DNA of 46,237 nucleotides from a virus: IMG/VR virus record IMGVR_UViG_3300028298_000011, positions 1-46,237 of that record; one strand, 5' to 3'. The first letter of the stretch is position 1; every line of letters begins with the position of its first letter. The translations under genes and the position numbers were made by a program. This document shows positions 16,806-28,645 of this stretch, piece by piece. A model generated the notes under the pieces. It saw nothing but the letters and a program-made list of their open reading frames with translations. It made no database searches and was not told the origin of the DNA.

Positions 16806-16845
16806 AAAACATTATTCAGATCTCATACCATTTATTTTCAAAATA

Positions 16846-16877
16846 AAATCCGGGCCTTAGAATAAAGACCCGGATTT
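16846..16877 (-). terminator. Rho-independent terminator after tmRNA
   Basis: A perfect 9-bp inverted repeat (AAATCCGGG / CCCGGATTT) with a 14-base loop. On the minus-strand transcript it is followed by UUUUAUUUU. It ends the terminase/tmRNA transcript and separates it from the portal gene. Part of it could also be a structural helix of the tmRNA coding piece. Confidence 0.75.
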
Positions 16878-16881
16878 GTCC

Positions 16882-16929
16882 CTATGCAGCCACCTTGTGG
16901 AACACAGGAATCATTGAGATTGTTTTGCC
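16882..16929 (-). other. tmRNA tag reading frame (GKTISMIPVFHKVAA-stop)
   Basis: Starting at the GGC at 16929 the frame encodes Gly-Lys-Thr-Ile-Ser-Met-Ile-Pro-Val-Phe-His-Lys-Val-Ala-Ala and stops at TAG (16884-16882). Known proteolysis tags end in a hydrophobic residue plus Ala-Ala, and Gly is, as I recall, a usual resume codon in Bacteroidota. The exact resume codon is inferred. The body of the tag, with Pro, His and Phe, is unlike the usual Asn/Glu/Tyr-rich host tags. Confidence 0.68.
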
Positions 16930-16991
16930 TGTTATGGCCTTGCATTCTCTCATTCCCCTAATTGTATGAAATCAAAAGCCTGGTCATCCCC

Positions 16992-17172
16992 GAGATCCTG
17001 GACTCCCCTCGTTGGGTCTATATCTGTGTTTACAGATATTGTTTCATCCAGGGAAAGAAACTGTACTATGGCGACAGGTTAGCCCCAACTGGATATAGAG
17101 AATAAGGTCGGCCCGGTATTATCATGTAACCCGGACCTTAAGCCGATTCCCTTACGGGAACTTAGGCCTGTG
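16992..17172 (-). other. Intervening segment of permuted tmRNA precursor
   Basis: The roughly 180 bases between the acceptor 3' end and the 5' end of the coding piece contain several hairpins. These include a perfect 8-bp stem with loop AAAC (17020-17039, ATATCTGT/ACAGATAT) and a TTCCC/GGGAA hairpin (17147-17160). A GTTGGG/CCCAAC pairing also encloses part of the segment. In known permuted tmRNAs such a segment is removed during maturation. That is inferred here. Confidence 0.6.
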
Positions 17173-17242
17173 TGGAGATGGCGGGAGTCGAACCCGCGTC
17201 TTTCATACTTTCCTGAAATGGTCAATGAACGCAGAGGTAAAA

Positions 17243-17446
17243 TTAGAAAATTCCCCCTACCCAGGATAAAAACTTCTGCCATAAACTGGGAATCATAGTA
17301 CAACTTTCTGCCTTGTACCATACTCTACATTCCCCTCCCAGGTATTTTGAATTCTTGATACCCACCAGATAACTAACTCTTCCATCAACTTCCCGGCGAC
17401 TTCTTATGAAGCCTGTTCCTGTTGATACTTTTACTTTTATGGCCAT
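17243..17446 (-). CDS. Small hypothetical protein between terminase and tmRNA
   Basis: A 67-residue basic protein (MAIKVKVSTGTGFIRSRREV, then DGRVSYLVGIKNSKYLGGEC) starting 4 bases after the terminase stop. I chose ATG 17446 over an in-frame ATG at 17479 inside terminase. The stop lies 3 bases before the start of the tmRNA region, so protein gene and RNA gene appear to share a transcript. No domain recognised. Confidence 0.55.
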   Translation of the reverse strand: MAIKVKVSTGTGFIRSRREVDGRVSYLVGIKNSKYLGGECRVWYKAESCTMIPSLWQKFLSWVGGIF

Positions 17447-26086: not shown

Positions 26087-26235
26087 GATCTTTTAAACCA
26101 AAAGTGAGCGAAAAAGAAATTGCCGAAAAAGACTACTGCTCCAATTACAAAAATTAAAGCAATGTCAAAGATTCCCCCTATTAATATGGATACAATACTT
26201 CCAATCATAAGTGATAAGGGTAATGATTTTTTCAT
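26083..26235 (-). CDS. Small two-span membrane protein (50 aa)
   Basis: The frame MKKSLPLSLMIGSIVSILIG..., ending HFWFKRS, is almost entirely hydrophobic with two likely transmembrane helices and basic ends. Its ATG overlaps the dUTPase stop (ATGA) and its TGA overlaps the next ATG. Such small early membrane proteins may affect host envelope functions or block superinfection. The role is unknown. Confidence 0.6.
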   Translation of the reverse strand: MKKSLPLSLMIGSIVSILIGGIFDIALIFVIGAVVFFGNFFFAHFWFKRS

Positions 26236-26657
26236 AATCCAGTTGAGCCAAATCCCCTGGCTCCGCGTTTAGTTTCCTCTGTATGCAGGAACAATACCTC
26301 CTCCAGGTTTGTGTATGTGACAGGGAGAATGATACCCTGCACTAATTTCATCCCTGGGGAAATCTGTTGGACCTGTTTTCCGACATTAATCACATGGAGA
26401 TGAATCTCCCCCTGGTAATCTTCATCAACTACGCAGGCTCCAACGATTAACTCCTTTTTGGTAGCAATCCCTGATTTATTCATCATCACCAGGACATGAC
26501 CTTCGGGGATCTTTACCTTAAGTCCACTCGGGATGTTTATCCCCTCCCCCCGTTTCAGCCAATAATAGAATTCCTCGGGGACATAGAAATCAATTCCTGC
26601 CGATCCAGGTGTCCCCCTGGTCGGGCTCTTAACTTCTCTGATTCTTGTGTACTTCAT
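26232..26657 (-). CDS. dut: Trimeric dUTP diphosphatase
   Basis: A 141-residue enzyme with all five trimeric dUTPase motifs: I SAGIDFYVP (19-27), II NKSGIA (60-65), III GACVVDEDYQGE (73-84), IV KLVQGIILPV (104-113) and V RGARGFGSTG (131-140). It hydrolyses dUTP to dUMP and pyrophosphate, keeping uracil out of DNA and feeding dTMP synthesis. The length is standard. It sits beside the thymidylate-synthase homologue and two other nucleotide enzymes, forming a pyrimidine-metabolism cassette. Confidence 0.95.
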   Translation of the reverse strand: MKYTRIREVKSPTRGTPGSAGIDFYVPEEFYYWLKRGEGINIPSGLKVKIPEGHVLVMMNKSGIATKKELIVGACVVDEDYQGEIHLHVINVGKQVQQISPGMKLVQGIILPVTYTNLEEVLFLHTEETKRGARGFGSTGL

Positions 26658-26673
26658 GACTTTTTGTGTTTAC

Positions 26674-27417
26674 TTAATAAATTACCCATTTTGTGATATC
26701 TTCCTTGTATGCATGGAAACTTCCAGCAAAGTAATTCAGTGCCCCACAGCGGAGCCCTGGATATGTCTCCAACAGGTTTTGAAGTATGTAATCCTGCAGG
26801 GCATGAGCCAGCCAGATGTCAATGGCAAAGTGCTTGAAATAGTCGTTGCTCCGGATATAATATAGGACCATCAGTTTGTTATTCCGGATCAGAAATTGAT
26901 ATGAAATTGAGCATGGAATCCTGGTTTGGAATCCGGCAGATTCACAGGTGTCTAAAGGATCAAATACCATCACCATTGCCCGGCGAGAGTGTATATCTTC
27001 CTTCAGGGCAGCAATTGCATTATCCAATTGTTGCATGTGGTTAATCCGTTCTGAATAGGTGTAGTCAAACTTTCCTTCCTGATCCCTGGACATAAGCTTT
27101 TGCCATAGGTCCATTCGGATCAGGTATGAACTCCCTGGGTTAACTCCCTCCCTGTTGATCCGGTCAGAGATCTCGGTATTACAATATTTTTCAATATTCT
27201 CAGCCTCTTCATTGAACACAAACTTCAGCATCTCCTGTTTCATCATATAAGGTTTGGAGATAATGAAATTAACCCCGATCAATTCTTTAGTGTTCTGATC
27301 TTCCCCGGTTAACTCCTGATTCTGGTAGTGCTTTATTGGCACCGTGATTCCGGAGACCTTAAGCTCCCGATCCATTTCTTGGATCATTTCTAAGCAGTCC
27401 TTAAAAATTCGTGCCAT
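26674..27417 (-). CDS. Thymidylate synthase family, dCMP hydroxymethylase-like
   Basis: A 247-residue member of the thymidylate synthase superfamily. The region 167-204 aligns without gaps to E. coli ThyA: catalytic Cys169 in IPCS, QF (174-175), YIRSNDYF (187-194), then IDIW. The residue in the place of ThyA Asn177 is Asp200. From T4 gp42 and ThyA mutant work, Asp at this place favours dCMP over dUMP. So it is more likely a dCMP hydroxymethylase or methylase than a true ThyA. The His after the catalytic Cys is replaced by Ser. It overlaps the methyltransferase-like gene by 17 bases. Confidence 0.8.
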   Translation of the reverse strand: MARIFKDCLEMIQEMDRELKVSGITVPIKHYQNQELTGEDQNTKELIGVNFIISKPYMMKQEMLKFVFNEEAENIEKYCNTEISDRINREGVNPGSSYLIRMDLWQKLMSRDQEGKFDYTYSERINHMQQLDNAIAALKEDIHSRRAMVMVFDPLDTCESAGFQTRIPCSISYQFLIRNNKLMVLYYIRSNDYFKHFAIDIWLAHALQDYILQNLLETYPGLRCGALNYFAGSFHAYKEDITKWVIY

Positions 27418-28645
27418 TTTTGATCTCCTTTTCAGCGATTTTTATTTGTTGTTTACAATACTCTTTTGACCCACAGAACTGACAGACCTTCTTCTGGTTT
27501 GAATATCCTATGATCTGGCAGTACTCAAACTTATTTCGGTCCACATTAGGATCTGATTTGACAGTCCTTTTTCCTGTATAGTCCTTATCCTCCCGGGTTC
27601 CTTCCAAAAAAGTCTTAATCTGCCCCGTAGCGTGTGTACAGGCCTCTACAGGAATGAACTTACCTGTCTGCTTAATCAGGGAGCGGTAACTGTCTACATT
27701 TTCATCAATTCCGGTTGGGATAAAGATGAAGTCGTCTGGGCATCCCTGGATTCTGGCTCTCTCCCGTATTGTGAACGGGAACATGGTGTCACTGCGGAAT
27801 CTGTTATCATAGGCCGATCCTCCCCCTGTAAGAGTTCCAGCATGCCGATCGATGTCAATGATCATGAATCCGATCCTTTGCTTTATTTCCTCCCTCCTGT
27901 TGTACCTGGGGATGGACTTATTCACTGGGGTGTCCCTTATGTAATCCTGGAGCTCCCGAACAGTCAGAATATTGTCTTCCCTGGGGGATCCTATAAACTC
28001 AGGTTCAAAGTTATATCTGCTCCACCCCTTTACCACGGAATCTGGATTGAGCCTATCATGGTTTGGAGCTCCATCCTTCAGATCCTGGATCTTATCACGG
28101 ATCGTCTTATTGTGATTGAATTCCCCAGGGATGAAATAGAATCCCAATTCCTTTTTGGATCCTATGACGAACAGCCTTCTTCTGCTCTTTTGGACATTCC
28201 CGTAGCCGTAGTTATTGATGTGCTCGAAATGGATGTCATAATCCGGCAGCATTGAAGACCAGTATACCCAGTCAACCACGATCAGTGATTTTGGGTTATT
28301 GTCCATAATGAAAAACTTTGGACTCAGCTTCTTTACTGATTCTATAAACTCCGGGATGTCCCCTACATCATTCTTGTTTAGTGCCTTCCCTTTATTCTTA
28401 TGGAATCCACTAAATCTGCCACAGTAAGTATGGCCTATGATAAGATCAACCCCTGTACATTCCTCGATCTGATCCTCTGAGAGATCCCTGAATTTCTTGA
28501 CCAGGAAAGCCCCAGGAAAGTTGTGCTCGAATGTCCCCGTATGAAAGTAAGGCCTATACTCTACATTCCCAATAATATCCCACCCTTGTTTCTTTGCCCC
28601 TATCATCATGGACCCTATCCCCCCGAATATCCCTAGTGCTCTCAT
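27401..28645 (-). CDS. C5-cytosine methyltransferase-like protein, divergent
   Basis: A 414-residue protein with the C5-methyltransferase layout: motif I ALGIFGGIGSMMIG (3-16), motif IV GHTYCGRFSGF with Cys75 (71-81), motif VI position MDNNP (114-118), motif VIII QKSRRRLFVIG (152-162), and motif IX-like TIRERARIQGCPDDF (292-306). Motif IV has YC instead of the usual PC, and motif VI has Asp-Asn-Asn in place of Glu-Asn-Val, so catalysis may differ. A C-terminal cluster of Cys376, 388, 391 and 397 could bind zinc. It lies between dCMP-hydroxymethylase-like and pyrophosphatase genes. Confidence 0.85.
   Translation of the reverse strand: MRALGIFGGIGSMMIGAKKQGWDIIGNVEYRPYFHTGTFEHNFPGAFLVKKFRDLSEDQIEECTGVDLIIGHTYCGRFSGFHKNKGKALNKNDVGDIPEFIESVKKLSPKFFIMDNNPKSLIVVDWVYWSSMLPDYDIHFEHINNYGYGNVQKSRRRLFVIGSKKELGFYFIPGEFNHNKTIRDKIQDLKDGAPNHDRLNPDSVVKGWSRYNFEPEFIGSPREDNILTVRELQDYIRDTPVNKSIPRYNRREEIKQRIGFMIIDIDRHAGTLTGGGSAYDNRFRSDTMFPFTIRERARIQGCPDDFIFIPTGIDENVDSYRSLIKQTGKFIPVEACTHATGQIKTFLEGTREDKDYTGKRTVKSDPNVDRNKFEYCQIIGYSNQKKVCQFCGSKEYCKQQIKIAEKEIKNGTNF

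Follow-up and report, generated by a model that had tools for sequence, protein, structure and literature searches.

Two-piece tmRNAs occur in lineages of Alphaproteobacteria, Betaproteobacteria and Cyanobacteria (PMC11915505) and have also been published from the OM43 phage Melnitz and from further phages, most of them marine; of 133 unique phage tmRNAs, 53 were called two-piece (PMC9004378). A 46,237-nucleotide stretch of viral DNA (IMG/VR record IMGVR_UViG_3300028298_000011; hereafter the window) raises the question of whether such an RNA is encoded by a phage of Bacteroidota as well, and what the phage might use it for. The original prediction for this locus had proposed a circularly permuted tmRNA that may tag proteins or free ribosomes during infection while using host SmpB and AlaRS.

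Gene order, structure and covariation

Our analysis located a complete circularly permuted tmRNA gene on the minus strand of the window (16840-17245; strand read directly and mapped by coordinate). In transcribed order, a promoter-like box is followed by the acceptor piece (17233-17173), a 181-nt segment, the coding piece, the tag and a terminator (Table 1). All of the predicted parts could be placed by coordinate, namely a 7-bp acceptor stem with G3.U70 and a discriminator A, a T-arm, P2 with two more stacked segments, and a tag frame ending VAA-stop ahead of a terminator. Run over the whole window, ARAGORN called exactly one gene, a permuted tmRNA (c[16791,17262]) with the tag GKTISMIPVFHKVAA followed by a stop. 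The Rfam permuted model (RF04321, tmRNA_permuted; gathering cut-off 47 bits) matched 16882-17230(-) at 48.9 bits (E 1e-6 over the window, 1.1e-8 when the searched space was 501 bases), and the one-piece model RF00023 scored 27.8-28.2 bits at the locus, under its cut-off.

The RF04321 score is weak proof by itself because some one-piece genes pass too: the cut-off was exceeded in 57 of 150 Pseudomonadota genomes, and ARAGORN read all seven of the Pseudomonadota matches fetched at 47-65 bits as one-piece. We therefore dropped the score as sole proof, and the case rests on gene order and on comparison with relatives (covariation). As a separate matter, RF04321 passes these one-piece genes (L374-L380), and its threshold is perhaps set too low for annotating genomes.

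Table 1 Features of the permuted tmRNA gene in the window.
Feature	Position	Strand	Basis and remarks
Putative promoter-like box TAATTTTA	17238..17245	-	Direct reading; TAnnTTTG with final base off
P2 distal 3' strand UGCGUUC, start of acceptor piece	17227..17233	-	Coordinate mapping; 17233-17227 pairs with 16947-16941
Family element GTTCATTGAC, overlapping P2 distal 3' strand	17230-17221	-	Comparison with relatives
P2 middle 3' strand CAUUUC	17215..17220	-	Coordinate mapping; 17220-17215 pairs with 16956-16951
P2 proximal 3' strand GUAUGAAA	17201..17208	-	Mapping and cognate/swapped pairing test; 17208-17201 pairs with 16971-16964
T-arm GCGGG-TTCGACT-CCCGC	17181..17197	-	RF04321 alignment, covariation
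Acceptor 3' strand CATCTCC (17180-17174) and discriminator A (17173)	17173..17180	-	CCA not encoded
Intervening segment, predicted to be excised	16992..17172	-	181 nt; structured, z -2.81
Acceptor 5' strand GGGGATG, start of coding piece	16985..16991	-	RF04321, mapping, covariation
D-loop analogue with GG...UUGA	16972..16984	-	Comparison with relatives
P2 proximal 5' strand UUUCAUAC	16964..16971	-	Mapping and cognate/swapped pairing test
P2 middle 5' strand GGAAUG	16951..16956	-	Coordinate mapping
P2 distal 5' strand GAAUGCA	16941..16947	-	Coordinate mapping
Tag frame GKTISMIPVFHKVAA-stop (VAA-TAG), Gly (GGC) resume codon, CCATAACA before it	16882..16929	-	ARAGORN, comparison
Intrinsic terminator, 13-bp stem and T-run	16840..16877	-	Stem at 16877-16846

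Among 21 distinct sequences, 99.6% of cells in the acceptor and T stems were paired and 41 cells were double-changed, and G3.U70 was present in every sequence; the discriminator A is retained as well. The covariation score for acceptor stem and T-arm was 0.42, versus 0.08 in shuffles (0 of 500 shuffles as high), and sliding the partner strand by one to three columns destroyed the covariation. For P2, we paired each coding strand with its own acceptor strand and with the acceptor strands of other sequences (n = 26). Cognate pairings were more stable than swapped ones (-4.55 vs -2.67 kcal/mol, p = 1e-5), and so they were at an intermediate length (p = 0.002) and over the whole of P2 (-15.95 vs -11.68 kcal/mol, p = 1e-5), p values that serve as a guide only since the sequences are related to each other; the own partner was not the best for every member (e.g., L309). 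The original prediction had been made to depend on covariation in P2 and the acceptor stem among relatives, and it passed this test. Relatives keep the pairing via compensatory changes, a resemblance beyond chance, and these comparisons confirm, as far as sequence can, that the locus is a genuine circularly permuted tmRNA gene carried by a phage.

The predicted joint fold was recovered in part: with strands trimmed to their parts, two-strand folding gave the acceptor stem, T-arm and first two P2 segments together, but longer strands gave competing folds. The intervening segment folds better than shuffles, and 16992-17172 yielded no tRNA and matched no RNA family of its own. Upstream, the -7 consensus of Bacteroidota is TAnnTTTG, and the exact motif stands just upstream of the gene in relatives L309, L314, L063 and L310.

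Only 11 nt (16940-16930) separate P2 from the resume codon, and 4 nt the stop codon from the terminator stem. The pseudoknot PK1 lies between P2 and the resume codon in most bacterial tmRNAs, though its presence is usual rather than strictly defining. Because P2 ends so close to the resume codon, the window tmRNA has no room for PK1, and the RNA appears to be without pseudoknots, as judged from spacing rather than from pseudoknot prediction. Its function therefore cannot be assumed from the standard tmRNA; highly reduced forms nevertheless count as tmRNA (PMC11915505).

Elsewhere in the window (26232-28645), a dUTPase, a thymidylate-synthase-like protein and a C5 cytosine DNA methylase are encoded side by side, a trio that may point to modified pyrimidines or restriction evasion.

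Relatives, tag classes and hosts

Relatives were sought in IMG/VR with a T-arm pattern and interval patterns and then read with ARAGORN. Other routes were less productive: a pattern with the window's own interval length returned no relative of its class, BLASTN of the window tmRNA in phages gave only short T-arm matches, and TerL and portal searches of viral_contigs found no direct relatives, so that portal alignment was needed. Intervening-segment length proved very variable across the family.

The phage permuted tmRNAs in IMG/VR fall into two classes by their D-loop analogue. Those with UCGA have an Ala resume codon in 39 of 43 cases and an encoded CCA in 37 of 43, and those with UUGA a Gly resume codon in 27 of 39 (for the others, ARAGORN seems to have read some tags incorrectly) and an encoded CCA in 4 of 39. 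The window, with UUGA, a GGC resume codon and no encoded CCA, belongs to the UUGA class. Within it, a subfamily has tags starting GK[TSV]I or AKVI, including those of the window, L309 (GKSISMVPQAFRMAV), L311 (GKTINFSNAPLRAVA), L314 (AKVITLGQPLRMAA), L063 (GKTIQVNFAPAQVRAAA), L196 (AKVITPSFTQLRAVA), L335 (GKTIQMFPQQLRAVV) and others. In several members the acceptor piece opens with GTTC[AG]TTGA or a close variant of it, and most have a hairpin close behind the tag. The window fits this group in its UUGA, Gly codon after ATAAC, GK[TSV]I tag, GTTC[AG]TTGA and terminator soon after the tag, a fit that is descriptive rather than an independent test as the class was defined on these same data. Codons at the tag start vary synonymously across relatives (Thr ACA/ACC/ACT; Ile ATC/ATT/ATA), which suggests that the peptide is under selection. 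The tags of many relatives end AV, VA or VV, not AA, which may weaken a degradation role.

Other members depart from this description. A second subgroup (L007, L036, L037, L048, L049, L054, L091, L095, L128 and others) has tags GEQVELAMAA or GEHVEMAMAA, short intervening segments and, by eye, an apparent pseudoknot after the tag; its host is only probably Bacteroidota because no host signal came from the L048 DNA ligase. Two permuted UUGA genes inside tRNA clusters (L144:118-405 and L158:5118-5405) lie nearest the window in the tree described below, yet have an ANDNFALAA tag and an encoded CCA; they are intermediate between the two phage classes, whose borders are therefore not clean. Complete tRNA genes occur within some intervening segments (Ala at L048:3675-3748, Glu at L091:5856-5927, His at L123:3046-3117), where excision would free a tRNA from between the two tmRNA pieces.

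As had been predicted, the window phage very probably infects Bacteroidota. Portal relatives were found in 19 phage records, 18 of them phages of Bacteroides, Parabacteroides, Alistipes or Croceibacter and one an unhosted gut contig, and the best tape-measure relatives are from Flavobacterium, Cellulophaga and Bacteroides phages. Six of the nine genome contigs with a related portal are titled Bacteroidota (the other three are MAG contigs titled otherwise). The window's terminase points the other way, though less strongly, as it is nearest that of a Synechococcus phage (44%).

Evidence independent of the window comes from the RNA itself, whose family recurs in phages and a prophage of this phylum. 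Maribacter phage Panino (PP540027), isolated on Maribacter halichondriae, has a permuted gene with tag GKVMNVSFAPTVRQFA that scores 62.2 bits with RF04321 and carries GTTCATTGAC. The crAss-like phage cr114_1 (NC_055897; L123) has one with UUGA and a Gly resume codon (50.9 bits), and Bacteroidota are established hosts of crAss-like phages (PMC7886860). In the Bacteroidota genome G279, a permuted gene with tag GKVIQMNNAPVRLAA lies amid DNA polymerase, helicase, RIIA, ligase and integrase genes (a prophage), and the genome's own one-piece tmRNA is intact on another contig (C5, 160 bits). This prophage copy was the sole RF04321 pass in 392 Bacteroidota genomes, and 96 of 99 sampled Bacteroidota genomes passed the one-piece model. 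The family is spread over many Bacteroidota phages, and nearly all sampled host genomes keep the unswapped gene. Upstream of its permuted tmRNA, cr114_1 also carries a Hatchet ribozyme (L123:1164-1292, 86 bits) and a RAGATH-9 RNA (L123:2522-2689, 154 bits).

Carriage of the gene is patchy. In L181, whose portal is 57% identical to the window's, a 75-nt gap separates terminase and portal with no tmRNA between them (the record is a fragment), and in L196 (portal 24% identical) the permuted tmRNA is present elsewhere in the record. Among 49 records searched whole, three passed the cut-off by a permuted gene. Its absence from the phage with the closest portal indicates that the gene is dispensable in at least some relatives, and comparison of these records indicates that it is gained and lost among these phages.

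Comparison with known tmRNAs and origin of the permutation

The original prediction had regarded a permuted tmRNA in a phage of Bacteroidota as unrecorded. This stands for the main texts of the open-access papers found, which do not describe permuted tmRNA in Bacteroidota phages, but two-piece tmRNAs borne by phages had already been published. The Panino paper reported an SsrA gene and did not call it permuted (PMC11590407), and GenBank annotates the Panino and cr114_1 tmRNAs as plain SsrA. What appears to be new is a Bacteroidota-phage clade with GK[TSV]I tags, a Gly resume codon, a UUGA loop and usually no encoded CCA.

With cellular permuted tmRNAs (RF04321; PMC11915505), the window gene shares the order of acceptor piece, excisable segment and coding piece, and a tRNA-like domain with G3.U70, whereas its host phylum has one-piece genes. 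The cellular alphaproteobacterial genes that we fetched have a different T-loop (GGGGGCGGTACC vs GGGTTCGANTCCC here) and, ahead of the tag, a GC-rich segment that is probably pseudoknotted. Melnitz-type phage tmRNAs, which have been grouped with alphaproteobacterial, gammaproteobacterial and cyanobacterial genes (PMC9004378), are likewise phage-borne and two-piece with a complete tag. However, the window has none of the UCGA, Ala codon (AND... tag) and CCA of the UCGA class, which we took as the Melnitz kind, these three being majority features of the class as sampled here rather than a published definition.

Closer to the window, Panino has a permuted gene of the same family with the same GTTCATTGAC element, but within a tRNA cluster, whereas the window's stands alone between terminase and portal; cr114_1 belongs to the same class but has the tRNA-His inside its intervening segment. 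One-piece Bacteroidota tmRNAs share the Gly resume codon in 8 of 28 sampled, and GACTGGTTTTGA is common to some (e.g., the G279 host gene L299); they are not permuted, and their tags end AA in 28 of 28, versus endings such as RAVA or RMAV in relatives of the window. The tmRNA of Cellulophaga phage Calle_1 (MT732432), another Bacteroidota phage gene with GACTGGTTTTGA and with CATTGACG upstream of the T-arm, was checked too and proved to be one-piece.

In a tree of the tRNA-like domain, all 35 UUGA permuted genes fell in a supported set (99/96) that takes in some Bacteroidota and phage one-piece genes and excludes the UCGA permuted ones; the tree has 69 columns, many unresolved forks and a bootstrap that had not settled, its alignment includes the UUGA/UCGA column, and cellular alphaproteobacterial genes are absent, their T-arms not matching the search pattern. 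The AU test did not reject a tree constrained to unite all permuted genes (p = 0.34). Three features (UUGA, the Gly resume codon and the absence of CCA) point rather to one-piece genes of Bacteroidota, and an independent origin of the permutation in Bacteroidota phages is plausible. We tentatively suggest, giving it slightly less than even weight, that this is a fourth independent tmRNA permutation, which would have arisen in Bacteroidota phages from a one-piece Bacteroidota-type gene and yielded a pared-down RNA with its own tag signature, in hosts whose cellular tmRNA has remained one-piece.

Possible roles during infection

The locus quite probably encodes a functional two-piece tmRNA, which is best interpreted as rescuing ribosomes by means of a phage tag. 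Alongside the observed gene order, structure, covariation, conserved tag start, phage location and Bacteroidota hosts of the family, we infer transcription, processing, charging, tagging and benefit for the window tmRNA as follows. Transcription would start at the unit's own promoter and end at the terminator behind the tag; since the unit seems self-contained, flanked by a promoter-like box close to P2 and by this terminator, it is mainly the intervening segment that would need excision, by host RNase P and 3' tRNA-processing enzymes, with CCA added. The acceptor and coding RNAs would stay joined via the acceptor stem and the long P2, be charged by host AlaRS (G3.U70, A73) and be delivered by host SmpB and EF-Tu to ribosomes stalled on broken mRNAs, where the nascent chain would receive the phage-specified tag instead of the host tag. 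The likely benefit would be ribosomes kept available during mRNA degradation in infection. No SmpB gene was found in the window record or in a further 18 phage records, of which several are fragments, and host SmpB would therefore be needed; the predicted use of host SmpB and AlaRS is consistent with this result and with the uniform retention of G3.U70.

The same RNA could instead act as a decoy that binds host SmpB or enters stalled ribosomes and damps host trans-translation. A reduced RNA with no room for PK1 would suit this role, a second tmRNA could compete with the one-piece tmRNA that a host such as G279 has, and such damping has been reported for tmRNAs consisting of a tRNA-like domain and no tag, e.g., in mycobacteriophage DS6A (PMC11915505, PMC4131195). 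We nonetheless consider a decoy unlikely, since it would not need a tag frame, and here the full frame is kept, with its start conserved at the amino-acid level through synonymous changes.

A passenger or integration-site remnant, i.e., a copy of a host gene taken from an attachment site and unused by the phage, is very improbable and already disfavoured. While tmRNA genes are known integration sites, a possibility considered by the Panino authors (PMC11590407), and an integrase lies in the G279 prophage region, the hosts' genes are one-piece, G279's own gene is intact on another contig, and the entire permuted gene is present and covarying over diverse phages. Chance or degenerate sequence that merely resembles a permuted tmRNA would account for an RF04321 score barely above the cut-off of a model that passes some one-piece genes too, but it has hardly any probability in view of the ARAGORN call and the intact T-arm, acceptor, P2, tag and terminator, and the family covariation already contradicts it.

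With ribosome rescue as the preferred reading, the finding bears on both the history and the use of these genes. Permuted tmRNA had been associated with three lineages of bacteria and with phages that group with these, and a diverse phage family in a phylum with one-piece cellular genes separates the history of the phage gene from that of its host. Having no space for pseudoknots, the window RNA may represent a naturally minimal tmRNA. The reasons for which phages carry ribosome rescue, and any advantage that permutation gives them, become open to experiment, with Panino and Maribacter halichondriae already available as a laboratory pair. With the GK[TSV]I tags and their altered C-termini, one could test directly whether host proteolysis is redirected or evaded by phage tags.
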